This document shows positions 6,730 through 34,630 of a stretch of 34,630 bases of DNA, one piece after another. A program made the position numbers and the translations under genes. Source of the stretch: Treponema sp. (GTDB taxonomy: Bacteria > Spirochaetota > Spirochaetia > Treponematales > Treponemataceae); contig JAEETM010000039.1 in NCBI GenBank assembly GCA_016290335.1, forward strand, positions 1 to 34,630. The letters run 5' to 3'. Position 1 is the first letter of the stretch. Each line of letters opens with the position of its first letter. Below the pieces are notes generated by a model that was given only the letters and a program-made list of their open reading frames with translations, searched no databases and was not told where the DNA came from.

Positions 6730-7359
6730 ATGAAAGTAGCAGTAATTTGTTCAAACGGAAAGGTTGGGAAACTGGTTGTAAAAGAAGCTTTGGCAGCTGG
6801 TTTTGAAGTTACGGGATTCGCACGAGGCGAAAACAAGAGCGAAGCAAAGAACTTTGTTCAGAAAGATATTTTTTCAGTCACAAAAGAAGACCTCGCATGC
6901 TTCGATGCTGTTGTTGACGCTTTCGGTGCATGGACTGAGCCTGAGCTTCCTAATCATGGAAAATCACTTGCCCATCTCTGCAACCTTCTTTCTGGTAAAA
7001 AAACACGCCTTGTAATTGTTGGTGGAGCCGGAAGCCTTTATGTGAACAAGGAACATACAGTCCGTGTTATGGATACACCAGATTTTCCAGATATATTCAA
7101 GCCTCTTGCAAATGCAATGGGCACAGCTCTTGAAGACTTAAGAAAGCGTAATGATGTTCAATGGACATACATCAGTCCCGCAGGAGACTTCCAGGCAGAC
7201 GCTCCAAAAACAGGCAAGTGGATTTGGGGTGGCGAAGAGCTCACACTCAATTCAAAAGGCGAAAGCATCATCAGTTATGCAGATTATGCGGCGGCATTGG
7301 TTGAGGAAATCAAAAACGGTAAGAATTTTCAGAAAAGAATTTCTCTAGTAAGAGAATAA
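6730..7359 (+). CDS. NAD(P)-binding oxidoreductase-like protein (atypical SDR, YwnB/NmrA-like)
   Basis: 209 residues with a Rossmann N-terminus (MKVAVICSNGKVGKLVVKEA), a second glycine motif (VIVGGAGSLYVN) and a C-terminal substrate-pocket region (TYISPAGDF), as in the small NAD(P)H-binding proteins of the YwnB/NmrA-like group. The Met at 6730 is chosen because AAGGAG lies six bases upstream; an in-frame ATG at 6703 has none. It is the first gene after the palindromic promoter. In Bacillus a similar protein (YwnB) is encoded beside an Rrf2 regulator (YwnA), which matches the Rrf2 gene in this block. The substrate is unknown; a redox-stress role is inferred. Confidence 0.8.
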   Translation: MKVAVICSNGKVGKLVVKEALAAGFEVTGFARGENKSEAKNFVQKDIFSVTKEDLACFDAVVDAFGAWTEPELPNHGKSLAHLCNLLSGKKTRLVIVGGAGSLYVNKEHTVRVMDTPDFPDIFKPLANAMGTALEDLRKRNDVQWTYISPAGDFQADAPKTGKWIWGGEELTLNSKGESIISYADYAAALVEEIKNGKNFQKRISLVRE

Positions 7360-8734: not shown

Positions 8735-9578
8735 CAAGCTTAAAAAAGCATTAAATGAAGCAGATACAATTATCATCGGAGCTGGAGCGGGCTTATCTAC
8801 TTCGGCGGGTTTCATGTATACAGGCGAACGCTTCAACAGATATTTTTCTGACTTTTCCAAAAAATACGGTTTTCGCGATATGTATTCGGGTGGCTTTACG
8901 CCTTTTAAGTCTCTTGAAGAGCATTGGGCGTACTGGTCACGCTATATTATGATAAACCGTTATATGGATCCCCCTAAGTCAGTATACAAAGATTTGTTTT
9001 CTCTTGTGAACGGCAAAGATTATTTTATAATTACGACGAATGTAGACCACTGCTTTCAGAAAACTGGCTTCGATAAAAAAAGGCTTTATTACACGCAGGG
9101 CGATTACGGTTTGTTCCAATGCTCAGAACCTTGCCACCAGAAGACGTACGACAACGAAGCGCAAATCCGTGTAATGTGGGAAAGTCAGCTCGATGAAAAT
9201 GGAAATCCTATAAAAATGATAGTTCCTACGGAATTGGTTCCACATTGTCCTGTATGCGGAAAACCTATGAGTATGAATCTTCGTGCTGACAATACATTTG
9301 TTCAAGACGATGGCTGGTACAAGGCGGCAGAACGGTATGAAAATTTTTTATGCACAAGGCGGGTGGCAGACGGTGGAAACCTCTTGTTCCTGGAGCTTGG
9401 TGTCGGTGCGAACACGCCCGGAATCATCAAATATCCGTTCTGGCAAATGACGGCAATAAATCCACATGCAACCTATGCTTGCGTGAATTACGGAGAAGCA
9501 GTTGCCCCACAAGAAATTGCAAACCGTTCAATCTGTATAAATGATGACATTGGCGAAGTCTTAAAGAAAATGATATAA
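8718..9578 (+). CDS. SirTM-class protein ADP-ribosylating sirtuin
   Basis: 286 residues. The NAD-binding motif GAGAGLSTSAG is at 21-31. TTNVDHCFQ supplies the sirtuin Asn/Asp. A zinc ribbon is formed by the CSEPC and CPVCG cysteines, and GVGANTPGIIKYPFW lies near the C-terminus. At the place of the usual catalytic HG, this protein reads YTQGDYG. Replacement of that histidine by glutamine marks the SirTM class, which transfers ADP-ribose rather than deacylating. The ATG at 8718 has AGGGAG seven bases upstream. In known SirTM operons the target is a lipoylated GcvH-like carrier with its own ligase; neither is encoded nearby here, so the substrate is open. Confidence 0.88.
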   Translation: MKEKINKLKKALNEADTIIIGAGAGLSTSAGFMYTGERFNRYFSDFSKKYGFRDMYSGGFTPFKSLEEHWAYWSRYIMINRYMDPPKSVYKDLFSLVNGKDYFIITTNVDHCFQKTGFDKKRLYYTQGDYGLFQCSEPCHQKTYDNEAQIRVMWESQLDENGNPIKMIVPTELVPHCPVCGKPMSMNLRADNTFVQDDGWYKAAERYENFLCTRRVADGGNLLFLELGVGANTPGIIKYPFWQMTAINPHATYACVNYGEAVAPQEIANRSICINDDIGEVLKKMI

Positions 9579-9579
9579 T
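9550..9579 (+). promoter_or_regulatory. Internal extended -10 promoter for the Rrf2 gene
   Basis: TGATATAAT (9571-9579) is a perfect extended -10 that overlaps the sirtuin stop codon. The only -35-like sequence, TTGGCG at 9550-9555, is weak and 18 bp away. Predicted transcription start 9586 coincides with the Rrf2 ATG, giving a leaderless message. Confidence 0.5.
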
Positions 9580-9585
9580 AAAACT

Positions 9586-10014
9586 ATGAAAATCAGTGTT
9601 CGTTTTACCGCGGCAGTACACACGCTTTTGTGCATCGAATATTTTGAAAAAGACATGCGTGTTACTTCAGATTTTATTTCTGCAAGTACTGGTGTGAATG
9701 CCGTTATCATAAGAAAGATTCTCCTTCAGCTGCAAAAAGCCGGTCTTGTAGAAACTGCTGCTGGTGTTGGAGGATCTCATCTTGCACGGACTACGGACAA
9801 AATTACACTGCTCGATATTTACAACGCAATCAATGAAGGCGTAGAAGAACGGGACGTTTTTAATTTCCATCCTAATCCAAATAGCAAATGTCCTGTAGGA
9901 AGAAATATTCATAAAGTTTTAGACCCTGTTTTGGATGCTACCCAGAAAGCGATGGAAAACGAAATGAATAGAACAACTCTGGCTGATTTACTAAATGGAA
10001 TTAAAGATAATTAG
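9586..10014 (+). CDS. Rrf2-family transcriptional regulator (YwnA-like)
   Basis: 142 residues with a winged-helix DNA-binding domain. The recognition region reads ISASTGVNAVIIRKILLQL and the wing GVGGSHLAR, typical of Rrf2 proteins. A C-terminal dimerisation helix follows, with one cysteine in the KCPVGRN loop. The three-cysteine cluster of IscR-type iron-sulfur sensors is absent, so a single thiol or a small ligand is more likely to be sensed. It starts 8 bp after the sirtuin stop with no ribosome binding site. It probably controls the block through the palindrome at 6623-6684 (inference). Confidence 0.9.
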   Translation: MKISVRFTAAVHTLLCIEYFEKDMRVTSDFISASTGVNAVIIRKILLQLQKAGLVETAAGVGGSHLARTTDKITLLDIYNAINEGVEERDVFNFHPNPNSKCPVGRNIHKVLDPVLDATQKAMENEMNRTTLADLLNGIKDN

Positions 10015-12433: not shown

Positions 12434-12462
12434 TTTACAGTAGAGTTTTATACAATTATTCT
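12434..12462 (+). promoter_or_regulatory. Candidate promoter for the ABC exporter operon
   Basis: TTTACA (12434-12439), 17-bp spacer, TATTCT (12457-12462), immediately after the attC-like site. It gives a leader of about 70 nt ending in GGAGG before the first ABC gene. The -10 matches the one proposed for murJ. Confidence 0.45.
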
Positions 12463-12539
12463 AATCAATCCTTATACTCACTGCACGCGAACAGGTGTTA
12501 AAGTTGTATTACTGTTCTTATTGTTCTTGGAGGGCAATT

Positions 12540-14267
12540 ATGAAGAAAAACACAGCTTTTTCGTGGGTATGGTCTTATGTGCGCCGTTATCGTTTTTTAA
12601 TGATGACAGGCTTGTTTTTAAGTGTTTGCGTAGCTGCACTGAATATGATAAACCCTCTTGTTACCGGCAACATTGTAGATAAAGTTATCCGCGGCGGAAA
12701 ACATGAGCTGCTCATAAAGTTTATTCTTATTATGGTAGGAACAACCTTAGGAAAATCAATTATCCGCTACACTTATCAGGTAATTTTTGAACACTGTTCT
12801 CAAAATGTAATCTTAAAAATGCGAGAGGATTTGTACGACCACATCCAGAAGCTTGACTTTTCCTGGTATGATAACGCACAAACCGGCAATGTTATGACTC
12901 TCCTTACTTCAGACCTGGACAAGGTTCGTCATTTTGTAGCGTGGGTTCTTTATCAGATTCTGGAAAACTCGCTGATTTACATTTTTTCCATCATCACCCT
13001 TTCTACAATAAACTGGAAGCTTACCGTTGCCTTTATGGTAATTGCACCACCTGTACTATTTCTTGTACAAAAGTTCAAAATCCATATCCGCCCGGCACAC
13101 CTTGCTGTCCGAGACCAGTTTGCTGTTTTGAATACCCGCGTTGGCGAAAACATTGAAGGTAACCGTGTTGTAAAGGCTTTTGTTCGCGAAGGCTACGAAA
13201 TAAACCAGTTTGATACAGAAAACGACAAGTTCCGCGATGTTGCCGTAAAAAATGCTGATGTCCGCGTAAAATACACTCCTTGGATTGAAGCCTTGTGCGG
13301 AATCCTTCCAGTTATTCTGATTCTTTTTGGCGGCTATCTTGTAATGACCGAAGAAATGACAATAGGACAACTTGTAACATTCAACGGCCTTATGTGGGCT
13401 TTTACTCAGCCAATCAATATGTTTGGAATGCTTGTAGACAACATGCAGAACTTTGGTGCTTCTCAGGACAGACTTTACGAATTGTGGTGCGCAAAACCAA
13501 AAATCAACAATGATGAAGCTGCAATTAAACGAGATGTACCGATTATTGGCGAAGTTGAATTTAAGCATGTAAGCTTTGCCTATAACGAAACACCAGTTTT
13601 GCAGGATGTAAACTTTGTAATTCCGGCTGGAAAAACGGTAGGCATACTTGGACCAACCGGGTCTGGAAAATCAACAATCGCAAATCTTCTTTGCCGCTAT
13701 TATGATGCTGTAGATGGAGAAGTTCTGATTGACGGAATAAACGTAAAGGATTACGACCTGCAATACTTACGCAAAAATGTTGGAATCACCATGCAGGAAG
13801 CTTTCCTCTTTAGCGATACAGTTGAAGGAAACATAGCTTTTGGCAATATAGATGCTCCATTCGAGGATGTTGAAAAAGCCGCAGAACTCGCACGCGTAAA
13901 AGAGTTCATCGGAGATTTAACAGAAGGATACGACACAATTGTTGGTGAACGCGGTGTTGGTTTAAGTGGCGGACAGAAGCAGCGAATTGCCCTTGCAAGA
14001 CTTTTCCTTGCTGACCCTAAAATTATGATTCTTGATGATACAACAAGTGCAGTTGATAACGATACCGAAAAGAAAATCCGTGAATCAATTGCAAAAAAGA
14101 GTGGCGGACACACAATGTTCATAATCAGCCACAGAGTTTCTTCCTTTGAAAACGCAGATATAATTCTTGTAATTCAAAACGGAAAAATCACTCAGAGCGG
14201 AACTCACGAAGAGCTTATGGCTCAGACTGACGGTTATTACAGACAGGTTTGGGAAGAACAGAACTAG
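12540..14267 (+). CDS. ABC exporter half-transporter, degenerate-site subunit
   Basis: 575 residues: a six-helix exporter membrane domain (about 1-300) fused to an ATPase domain. Walker A GPTGSGKST is at 371-379, the signature LSGGQ at 475-479, Walker B ILDDTTS with Asp500 where the catalytic Glu is expected, and the switch His in FIISHRVS. The Glu-to-Asp change marks the non-hydrolysing site of heterodimeric exporters such as TM287/288 or LmrCD. The ATG at 12540 is chosen for the GGAGG five to six bases upstream. The partner gene follows after 22 bp. Drug, lipid or peptide export is possible; the substrate is unknown. Confidence 0.93.
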   Translation: MKKNTAFSWVWSYVRRYRFLMMTGLFLSVCVAALNMINPLVTGNIVDKVIRGGKHELLIKFILIMVGTTLGKSIIRYTYQVIFEHCSQNVILKMREDLYDHIQKLDFSWYDNAQTGNVMTLLTSDLDKVRHFVAWVLYQILENSLIYIFSIITLSTINWKLTVAFMVIAPPVLFLVQKFKIHIRPAHLAVRDQFAVLNTRVGENIEGNRVVKAFVREGYEINQFDTENDKFRDVAVKNADVRVKYTPWIEALCGILPVILILFGGYLVMTEEMTIGQLVTFNGLMWAFTQPINMFGMLVDNMQNFGASQDRLYELWCAKPKINNDEAAIKRDVPIIGEVEFKHVSFAYNETPVLQDVNFVIPAGKTVGILGPTGSGKSTIANLLCRYYDAVDGEVLIDGINVKDYDLQYLRKNVGITMQEAFLFSDTVEGNIAFGNIDAPFEDVEKAAELARVKEFIGDLTEGYDTIVGERGVGLSGGQKQRIALARLFLADPKIMILDDTTSAVDNDTEKKIRESIAKKSGGHTMFIISHRVSSFENADIILVIQNGKITQSGTHEELMAQTDGYYRQVWEEQN

Positions 14268-19302: not shown

Positions 19303-20844
19303 TTATTTCTTCAATCTGTCCAATGGTCTGGCAAAAACTTCCTTTGACATAGGTCCTGTTATTCTGTCATCAAGCCTTGACCAGGCCGCAATTGCAAAAT
19401 AATAGATTTTCCCATTTTCCAATCCTGTCACCTTAAACGATGTCTGATTTCCAACTTTTATTGGGGATGCTCCTTCAACTGCAATTCTTCCCAAGTATTC
19501 TCCAGGACGACTGCCATAGTAGATATAATAACCACCGGCAGTATCATCAACTGAATATTTCCATTTTAAAAGCACACAACCATTTCCTGCTTCGGCCTTT
19601 ACTGTAAAAGGCGGCAGCGGTAAAGGAAGTTCTGTAAAATCCAGCTCAATGGTAGTTACAGAAGGAGTTTTTTCTCCATCCCCATCCGGATAAAGATTAC
19701 AGGCAACCTGGAAATACAGGCCTGTTATACCGTCAAGGGTGTCCCCATTTTCAACTGGCTTCCATTCAGGATAAGTGTCTGTCCAGTTATAAAAATTGTC
19801 TCCTGAACGCACAAAATAGCATACATCAGTCTGAGGAGGAATACTGTCAACAGCCGTAAGCGAATTAAGCTTTGCACCGGTAGAAACCTTAATCGGTTTA
19901 GTTTCAAAACGTCCGCCTGTTGGTGCATAAATCAGCCGTCTCAGGGTTCCTGCATATTCTGCAGACTGGTATTCCGGTGGAGAATATGGCCGTCTTAAAA
20001 TACGGATATCATCAATTTTTCCTGTATATTCAGTACAGAATTGAAGTTCAGATGGAGTTCCAAGAACAATAAACTCAATTTCGCCATTTGCATCGCCGGT
20101 AGAAGTTACGTACAGCAAATCCTCTGTAACTCCATTTACAAGGTACTCAAGTATTCCGGTTTCACAGTCATAAGAAAGAACGTGACAGCTCCATTTATCA
20201 GGAATAATGTTTGAAGTTCCTTTCAGATTTATTTCATTATTTCCGTATTCGTTTTTGTAATTATCAAAAAAGTTAGATAAAGTCCAGCTGAGGTGACCTC
20301 CGTCAAAAATACAGTTCATAAGCTGGTAGATGAGTCTGCCCCGTACATTTTTGGAAGATTCCCATTTGATTATTACTTCACCATTTTCTGCAATCGACGG
20401 ACAAAGCCAGAACTCTATGGAAAAAGACCCCAAAAGTCCTTCCGTACCGAAAAATGCTCCAGGTTTACCAAGAACACTCAATCCTCCAATATTTCTGGAC
20501 AAACCGGCACCCTTTTCCATTATTGCATCAGTAGAAATCCGAAGATTATTCGTCAAAATATCATAAGCACCCGTAGAAACAGGCATTGCAGGATTTTCAA
20601 AATCAATCAGTAAGTCGGTAACCTCATCCGAAGCAAAGGAATTAGTTGCAAGCTCAATACAATCATAACCATAGCGTCCTGTTCCCGTAGTTACACCATT
20701 TGAATAACTGAATGCAGACCATCCTTCCTTTCCGCCAAGGACAATCTGAGTATTCTCTGCGTATACATAATGAGAAAAAAGGAATAAAATGCAGAGCAGG
20801 AAACTTACCTTGCAGGACACTTTATTAATCTGTTTTTTTAACAT
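19303..20844 (-). CDS. Secreted LamG-like / fibronectin type III protein
   Basis: About 513 residues. A basic, hydrophobic signal peptide (KVSFLLCILFLFSHYVYA) is followed by a concanavalin/LamG-like region (about 60-300, with FSIEFWLCPS and IDDIRILRRPYSPPEYQ) and a C-terminal FN3 domain (about 415-505, ending LENGKIYYFAIAAWS). It is likely exported to the periplasm or cell surface; carbohydrate or protein binding is inferred from the folds. The ATG at 20844 is chosen because AGGTG lies six to seven bases upstream; an in-frame GTG at 20853 is the alternative. It is probably cotranscribed with the TPR gene. Confidence 0.8.
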   Translation of the reverse strand: MLKKQINKVSCKVSFLLCILFLFSHYVYAENTQIVLGGKEGWSAFSYSNGVTTGTGRYGYDCIELATNSFASDEVTDLLIDFENPAMPVSTGAYDILTNNLRISTDAIMEKGAGLSRNIGGLSVLGKPGAFFGTEGLLGSFSIEFWLCPSIAENGEVIIKWESSKNVRGRLIYQLMNCIFDGGHLSWTLSNFFDNYKNEYGNNEINLKGTSNIIPDKWSCHVLSYDCETGILEYLVNGVTEDLLYVTSTGDANGEIEFIVLGTPSELQFCTEYTGKIDDIRILRRPYSPPEYQSAEYAGTLRRLIYAPTGGRFETKPIKVSTGAKLNSLTAVDSIPPQTDVCYFVRSGDNFYNWTDTYPEWKPVENGDTLDGITGLYFQVACNLYPDGDGEKTPSVTTIELDFTELPLPLPPFTVKAEAGNGCVLLKWKYSVDDTAGGYYIYYGSRPGEYLGRIAVEGASPIKVGNQTSFKVTGLENGKIYYFAIAAWSRLDDRITGPMSKEVFARPLDRLKK

Positions 20845-33258: not shown

Positions 33259-34236
33259 ATGTTTTTGTACATTAATTTTCCGTCGTGGATTCATCCGCAG
33301 ATTTTTCCGGGAGTAAAGTTTCTTGGACTTTTGCGCTGGTATGGCTTGATGTATGTTTTTGCCTTTACCACCGCATATTTTATTTTAAAGAAAGTTGCAA
33401 AGGAAGGTGCTTTAGATACTCCATCCTATAAAATTACCGAAGATGATTTGTTCAGCTTTATTGCAACAGGCATAATTTTCCTTTTACTTGGGGCAAGAAT
33501 TGCTTCTACACTTATTTACAGTCCGGGTGCCGGTTACTGGAAACATCCCTGGCTGATTTTCTGGCCATTCTACAATGGACATTTTGTTGGTTTTGCAGGA
33601 ATGTCGTACCACGGTGGATTTGTGGGCGGGCTTCTTGGAATGATTATCTGGTGCAAAAAGCACAAGCAGCCGGTTGCAAAATGGGTTGATGCGATGGTTT
33701 GTGCAATTCCTCTTGGCTACACCTTTGGCCGAATCGGCAACTTTATGAACGGCGAGCTTTTTGGCCGCATAACAACTATGCCTTGGGGGATGGTTTTCCC
33801 TGCTGCAGAAACTTTTTCTTCTTCTCTGCAATGGGTTCAGGATTTTGCCGCAAAAATTGGAATGGACATTTCAACTGTTCGCCTGGTAAATCTTCCACGC
33901 CACCCAAGTCAGCTTTATGAAGCCTTTTTTGAAGGCATTGTTTTATGGTCTATAATCTGGTTTACCCGCAAGCACAAAAAGTTTGACGGCATGCTTTCCT
34001 GCATTTACACCGGCGGTTACGGCTTGTTCAGGTTCTTTATTGAATATTTCCGCGAGCCGGATGCAGATTTAGGCTTTAGAATTGGTGATAAATCGGCAAA
34101 TATTTACGAAAACACTTCGCTTACTAATTTTTCTACAGGACAGATCCTGTGCTTTTTGATGATTGCAGGCTCAATAATAGTGGGACTTCTACTCTGGCGC
34201 AAAGAAAAAAAACAGTCTGCTAGCGTGGCAAAGTAA
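33259..34236 (+). CDS. lgt: Prolipoprotein diacylglyceryl transferase
   Basis: 325 residues with about seven membrane segments. Family signatures are present: YHGGFVGGLLG with the essential His, GRIGNFMNGELFGR, and RHPSQLYEAFFEGI. Lgt attaches diacylglycerol from phosphatidylglycerol to the lipobox cysteine of prolipoproteins in the inner membrane, an abundant class in spirochaetes. AAAGGA precedes the ATG by a normal distance. Its 3' end abuts the 95-bp repeat array. Confidence 0.96.
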   Translation: MFLYINFPSWIHPQIFPGVKFLGLLRWYGLMYVFAFTTAYFILKKVAKEGALDTPSYKITEDDLFSFIATGIIFLLLGARIASTLIYSPGAGYWKHPWLIFWPFYNGHFVGFAGMSYHGGFVGGLLGMIIWCKKHKQPVAKWVDAMVCAIPLGYTFGRIGNFMNGELFGRITTMPWGMVFPAAETFSSSLQWVQDFAAKIGMDISTVRLVNLPRHPSQLYEAFFEGIVLWSIIWFTRKHKKFDGMLSCIYTGGYGLFRFFIEYFREPDADLGFRIGDKSANIYENTSLTNFSTGQILCFLMIAGSIIVGLLLWRKEKKQSASVAK

Positions 34237-34249
34237 AACATCGACTAAA

Positions 34250-34600
34250 AAGTCCGTAATTACCGGTTGTTGATGAGTCAATAACACCTAGAATTGACTG
34301 TGAAAGTGCATTCACTACGGACAAAATGATTAAAATTATAAAAAAAGTCCGTAGAAATTGGCGGCTGAGGAAAATATAACAATAAGAATTAGCTGTGAAA
34401 TCGCTTTTACTACGTACCAAAAGACTAATTTGCTGAAAAAAATACGTAAAACTGTCAGTTGATGAAGAATTTCCCACCAAGAATTGACTGTGAAACTGCA
34501 TTCACTACGTACCAAAAGACCAATTTGCTGAAAAAAATACGTAAAACTGTCAGTTGATGAAGAAATACCCCCAAGAATTGCCTGTAAGGTAAGTAAATAA
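34250..34600. repeat. Tandem array of 95-bp structured repeats (three full copies and a truncated one)
   Basis: Copies begin at 34252, 34347, 34442 and 34537, exactly 95 bp apart; the last decays after about 34585. Each contains a GAATTGACTGTGAAA-like core (34291, 34386, 34481, 34575). Predicted stems are GTGAA/TTCAC, CTACGGAC/GTCCGTAG and GTCAGTT/AATTGAC, and changes in one arm tend to be matched in the other between copies. The period is not a multiple of three, so it is not a protein repeat. Copies 2-3 are nearly identical, copy 1 is diverged. Beyond 34600 I see only a G-rich tail. Confidence 0.8.
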
Positions 34601-34630
34601 GTTTTTAAGAAGGGGTGGGACGTTGCGGGG

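Follow-up and report, generated by a model that had tools for sequence, protein, structure and literature searches.

The window, by which we mean the entire 34,630-nucleotide stretch of Treponema sp. DNA that was analyzed, ends shortly downstream of lgt, a gene encoding prolipoprotein diacylglyceryl transferase. This gene is preceded by one for a ParA/MinD-type ATPase, as identified by Pfam. In the genome collection, the nearest Lgt proteins come from Treponema, most of them from gut or rumen judging by record titles, and the top match, at 83% identity, belongs to a Treponema from horse faeces. Among the best 80 related lgt loci, none was near-identical to the locus described here. Between the end of lgt and the end of the window, 394 bases remain, and within them a tandem array with a 95-bp period begins about 10 bases after the lgt stop codon. 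The gene, the array, and its copies are as follows.

33259..34236, plus strand: lgt, prolipoprotein diacylglyceryl transferase, 325 aa (open reading frame; Pfam PF01790 [LGT], E 9.4e-60)
34247..34587, no strand: 95-bp tandem array of about 3.5 units (TRF, shift identity, and alignment)
34247..34314, no strand: copy 0, partial; the 5' arm of stem A would fall in the end of lgt and is unrecognisable
34315..34409, no strand: copy 1, the sole copy with an unusual fold (z -3.83 on the plus strand)
34410..34504, no strand: copy 2 (repeat spacing and alignment)
34505..34587, no strand: copy 3, with its 3' end lost; matching stops near 34587

TRF reported the repeat at 34281-34579, with a period of 95, 3.2 copies, and a score of 295. 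At a shift of 95, the sequence matched itself at 178/266 positions, and no other shift between 85 and 105 gave more than 100/267. The array is real, with the unit repeated head to tail beyond what chance would give; its outer limits were set by eye from the alignment and from local identity at shift 95, and similarity fades at both ends. The initial annotation had described four copies with an exact 95-bp period. The period, the place, and the recurrence of the unit all held, but "exact" was only nearly right, as the copies are spaced by 95, 95, and 94 bases in one repeat family (95 and 95 in the other) and differ by one-base indels in the alignment. Nor are there four full units: copies 0 and 3 are incomplete, which leaves about 3.5.

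The copies have diverged to different degrees. Ungapped identity, which is depressed by the one-base indels, was 67/81 between copies 2 and 3, 60/95 between copies 1 and 2, 43/65 between copies 0 and 1, 40/65 between copies 0 and 2, and 39/81 between copies 1 and 3; the value of 16/51 for copies 0 and 3 is out of register through indels. Furthermore, the differences form a mosaic. GTCCGTA is common to copies 0 and 1, where copies 2 and 3 have ATACGTA; the TTGACTGTGAAA-TGCATTCA end is common to copies 0 and 2 and absent from copy 1. These mosaic differences fit repeated duplication and exchange inside the array. No further unit was found in the rest of the 34.6-kb window, where the next-best matches were 14 and 21 bases long. 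The array is non-coding: 95 is not a multiple of 3; no plus-strand open reading frame of at least 80 aa crosses the array 3' of lgt; and neither of two minus-strand frames across it had a Pfam match above the cutoff (best, DUF4282, with 16.4 bits versus 27).

RNAalifold gave a consensus of two stems for the aligned copies, here called stem A and the second stem. Two weak stems are a fair description of the layout of the unit, and their members are listed below.

34315..34354, plus strand: stem A of copy 1, 34315-34322 with 34347-34354, CTACGGAC/GTCCGTAG, 8 pairs, loop of 24
34411..34448, plus strand: stem A of copy 2, TACGTA with TACGTA, 6 pairs
34506..34543, plus strand: stem A of copy 3, TACGTA with TACGTA, 6 pairs
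34361..34396, plus strand: second stem of copy 1, GCGGCTGA with TTAGCTGT, including three G-T pairs
34456..34490, plus strand: homologous second stem of copy 2, CAGTTGAT with ATTGACTG, including two G-T pairs

The perfect 8-pair stem A is found in copy 1 only, and 6 pairs are kept in copies 2 and 3. It had been proposed that a paired change in this stem preserves pairing. Both forms of the stem are indeed present, and from copy 1 to copy 2 one pair underwent a double change, G-C to T-A, but two flanking pairs were lost. The arms of copies 1 and 2 differ by one and three substitutions, for which the probability of at least one compensating change is 0.13; for retaining at least 6 pairs at that same substitution count, it is 0.26. 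Moreover, TACGTA reads the same on both strands, so pairing arises automatically wherever it occurs twice in direct orientation. In two tests, an 8-pair stem was matched in 29/500 and 6/200 shuffles of copy 1, and 14 of the 360 tiles of 95 bases from the rest of the window contained an inverted repeat with at least 8 pairs.

For the second stem, the initial annotation had GTCAGTT/AATTGAC changing to GGCTGA/TTAGCT with pairing kept. The former occupies alignment columns 46-52/74-80 and the latter columns 49-54/76-81; these are separate diagonals, and the two helices are not homologous. In the register of columns 46-52/74-80, 3/7 pairs are broken in copy 1. The homologous diagonal joins columns 48-55 with 75-82, which was also RNAalifold's choice, and the stem there shows a single double change along with several G-T wobbles. 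Over its best run of 7 pairs (columns 48-54 with 76-82), 26/28 cells were paired, a value reached in 3/400 column shuffles; for copies 1 to 3 alone, the number of paired cells was matched in 8/400. When pairing was combined with the covariation score, 82/400 column shuffles matched the four copies and 57/400 matched copies 1 to 3 alone. Between copies 1 and 2, the probability that pairing was kept by chance was 0.02 to 0.07, varying with the base copy and the helix length, and in other copy comparisons it was 0.07 to 1.0; these values precede any correction for helix choice, and the better register was picked after inspection. The second stem thus pairs better in the homologous register than in the one first proposed, a difference that is not decisive.

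Covariation was tested first in the register of the initial annotation and next in the homologous one, for which support was somewhat higher; all of these tests rest on four related copies of one array. In the first register, the observed count of double changes was reached by 457/500 shuffles. In the better register, with both stems included, 104/500 shuffles reached the double-change count, 20/500 the covariation score, and 56/500 the share of paired cells; two measures were borderline, at 20/500 shuffles each, as was the number of paired cells in the second stem (3/400 column shuffles). Over the four copies, 2/17 pairs changed on both sides and stayed paired, and the figure for the RNAalifold consensus set was 2/14. 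The consensus energy was -5.18 kcal/mol, to which covariation contributed an unfavourable +0.25. The two-stem layout paired 79.4% of cells, against 25.0 to 42.4% when the partners were slid, an excess expected for any structure derived from its own sequences. That covariation argues for a selected RNA or single-strand DNA structure had been proposed for this locus. Its two-stem layout is the consensus, but the covariation is mostly within chance; we regard it as within or near chance overall, suggestive at best, and no proof of selection.

Folding of individual units was compared with that of shuffled sequences. With the array divided at the unit borders, copy 1 folded better on the plus strand than all but 1/200 of its shuffles, and its minus strand gave a z of -2.41; copies 0, 2, and 3 gave plus-strand z values of -0.85, -0.41, and -0.34. 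The frame at 34275-34369, which contains stem A of copy 1, had a z of -2.76. For the whole array, the plus strand gave a z of -2.43 (1/100 shuffles as good) and the minus strand a z of -1.38 (7/100), with shuffles that destroy the tandem structure. Under selection for the fold, the young copies 2 and 3 would be expected to fold well, and they do not. Rfam covariance models run over 33900-34630 returned no match at an E of 1.

The initial annotation had suggested a search for the same unit in related Treponema; genome searches by DNA and by covariance model yielded only short or doubtful matches. DNA search of the 274 family genomes at an E of 0.001 gave 3 matches in 2 genomes, with at most two candidates scored in each genome listed, and none was a convincing homologue among the best few candidates scored per genome. 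The 46 Treponema genomes that carry 46 of the 80 related loci gave 5 matches of 20 to 32 bases in 5 genomes at an E of 0.01 (at most 15 candidates in each genome listed), and 392 phylum genomes gave none at 1e-5 (at most two candidates in each genome listed); the sets of 46, 274, and 392 partly overlap. No match was found in phage records or in Escherichia coli genomes, and two plasmid records each had a 26-base match with an E of 0.3. In viral sequences, a 15-mer pattern occurred in 26 contigs, among which the only similarity to the array at an E of 0.01 was 19 nt long, in L102; for two longer patterns there was no match. Covariance models were built with the second stem as in the initial annotation (R1) and in the better register (R2) and run on genomes with strict filters. 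R1 matched 1/146 genomes, at an E of 0.006 and within a 313-aa frame, and its best E over the 80 related loci was 0.3. R2 matched none of the 274 genomes at an E of 0.01 or less, with 15 candidates scored per genome listed and no positive control, and over the 80 related loci it found at an E of 1 or less only the window's own four copies. Likewise, similarity search at an E of 0.01 found no sequence like the array in those 80 loci. The genome searches were run without a positive control and with few candidates per genome, so copies as diverged as copies 1 and 2 are from each other might escape them.

Several of the short matches were inspected individually. Positions 34248-34270 of the window match 23 nt exactly, on the reverse strand, at 1501-1523 of L113, from a Treponema-family genome; the match is antisense in a carboxylesterase gene (Pfam COesterase, E 1.6e-110), in a stretch coding TTGNYGL. 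The L112 match is an A-rich stretch partly between two frames. These two were taken as chance matches. The L107 match, with 28/32 bases and lying wholly between two frames, was also taken as chance, without proof. The L113 and L116 matches lie inside genes or long frames.

Tandem arrays of other sequence turned up occasionally in these loci. The 80 related loci span 862,048 bases, 39,604 of them free of any frame of at least 120 codons. In 11 of the loci, 11 sequence-unrelated tandem arrays outside long frames were found, five of them with periods of 44 to 187 bp, when arrays were required to have a TRF score of 50 or more, a period of 10 or more, and over 60% of their length outside long frames. 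Degenerate intergenic arrays are thus part of the ordinary make-up of the group. In L017, a degenerate 19-bp array, CTTACACACGAGTAAAACT, lies at 7018-7111, about 15 bases behind lgt, with 4.9 copies and 69% matches, and in L009 an array of 2.2 copies overlaps the end of lgt. An intergenic TTACAC/GTGTAA palindrome array at 1233-1346 of L067 contains a 15-pair inverted repeat (0/200 shuffles); its motif resembles the L017 array, and the strict pattern occurs once in L067, once in L006, and in no other of 116 loci. L014 has an intergenic array at 9355-9832 with a 187-bp period, 2.6 copies, and 72% matches, and each of the two units examined holds a 10-pair hairpin (palindromes reached by 3/200 and 1/200 shuffles). 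The arrays of L050, L053, L074, and L017 showed no palindromes above shuffles. In the closest relative, L001, short units of ACCAAYGCA type at 12455-12721 lie in open frames of uncertain coding status. In the literature available, a search found no paper that links Treponema with intergenic palindromic tandem repeats or with intergenic tandem repeats and the rumen, the nearest one being on rrn spacers.

Altogether, the observed array, its divergence, and its mosaic pattern probably represent an ordinary lineage-specific intergenic minisatellite. We favor this reading because of the copy identities, the mosaic, the fact that only copy 1 folds well, and covariation not clearly beyond chance, and because there is no other copy in the window and no convincing relative, while unrelated arrays occur in 11/80 loci. 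We infer a route by duplication and no selected function. Some 95 bp of sequence downstream of lgt would have been duplicated in tandem more than once, presumably by replication slippage or unequal exchange. Copies 2 and 3, nearly alike, would be young, and the diverged copies 0 and 1 old; the copies would have drifted and swapped pieces, and the stems would be the remains of inverted repeats that the founding unit carried, least altered in copy 1 and eroding in copies 2 and 3. As a minisatellite, the array would matter little beyond strain typing. It also carries a caution, as a palindromic core together with a chance double change can mimic covariation in a few related tandem copies.

Some observations count against the minisatellite, namely, second-stem pairing above random column order (26/28 cells; 3/400), G-T wobbles that pair on the plus strand only, as in RNA, the pairing probability of about 0.02 to 0.07 between copies 1 and 2, the covariation score (20/500), the 8-pair stem of copy 1 (29/500 and 6/200), and the z values of the 34275-34369 frame and the plus-strand array (-2.76 and -2.43). 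A structured RNA on the plus strand is one rival reading: the array would belong to the 3' untranslated region of the lgt mRNA, with two hairpins per unit that could stabilise the message, bind a protein, or yield repeated small RNAs. The same two stems given by RNAalifold, the second-stem pairing, the covariation score, the strand-specific G-T pairs, and the fold of copy 1 agree with it. We nevertheless consider it unlikely, as most covariation measures are within chance, the consensus energy reaches only -5.18 kcal/mol and its covariation term is unfavourable, copies 2 and 3 fold like shuffles, Rfam gives no match, and R2 finds nothing at an E of 0.01 or less in 274 genomes under strict filters and with no positive control. 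Slightly more doubtful still is the specific proposal that each 95-nt unit is a two-hairpin RNA in the 3' end of the lgt transcript, forming a new lineage-specific family; the array may in that case give the message a tail in which sites for binding, or small RNAs, recur. Were a plus-strand RNA present, a lipoprotein-modification gene would be followed by a repeated RNA element, in a group that is known for many lipoproteins.

That the array offers DNA sites to a protein, with units centered on a near-palindrome (CTTTTACTACGTACCAAAAG in copy 2), appears quite improbable. With about 10.5 bp a turn of the DNA helix, the 95-bp period comes to about nine turns, and an overlapping palindrome at 34404-34423 has 13-nt arms that are 85% complementary. 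TTTTNNTACGTANNAAAA, a pattern derived from copy 2, matched three places in the window when up to 2 mismatches were allowed: one each in copies 2 and 3, and one at 20252. Shuffles averaged 0.53 matches and 0/100 reached three; yet the two array matches are copies of each other, one weak site lies elsewhere in 34.6 kb, and copy 2 alone has a perfect palindrome, with 2 mismatches in copy 3 and more in copy 1. Repeated transcription terminators on one or both strands are highly improbable. Such sites would suit an array that starts just after lgt ends, and the minus-strand T7 run in the units had been read as able to end transcripts of that strand in each unit; that reading did not survive, since the run sits in a loop with no stem before it and a scan of both strands found no terminator-like site inside the array, its one match (34134-34151, plus strand) lying within lgt. 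The sole promoter-like site, on the minus strand, was at chance level. Finally, integron attC sites or the remnant of a cassette array are barely conceivable here. The boxes of attC are R'' RYYYAAC and R' GTTRRRY, and neither GTTRRRY nor RYYYAAC was found as a strict motif on either strand of 34240-34630; the unit has two side-by-side hairpins rather than one nested R/L hairpin, and 95 bp leave no room for cassette genes. In favor of attC, the available text of PMC3607928 describes chromosomal integrons in Treponema with attC sites of 63-132 bp, and according to the same text only the AAC and GTT triplets are well conserved, so the strict box test is not final.

The preferred minisatellite reading has counterparts among known repeats. 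MIRU form a family dispersed through its genome, whereas the 95-bp array has no second locus within the 34.6-kb window. Like MIRU/VNTR loci, it consists of tandem units, from tens to roughly a hundred bp long, that lie between genes in few, diverged, and mosaic copies; the MIRU of Mycobacterium are named in the available part of PMC2267715. The same part describes stem-loop containing bacterial repeat families of 9 to 164 elements each, which share with the array short non-coding repeats able to form stem-loops, whereas the array is, as far as seen, a single local one with weak stems. With the Treponema attC arrays, as described in the available text of PMC3607928, it shares the genus and repeated sites able to form single-strand hairpins, but it is without strict R boxes, the nested hairpin, and cassettes. 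The arrays of L014, L050, L053, L067, L074, and L017 differ in having no sequence similarity to the 95-bp unit, but they are likewise degenerate and situated between genes, some are palindromic, and that of L017 also lies behind lgt.
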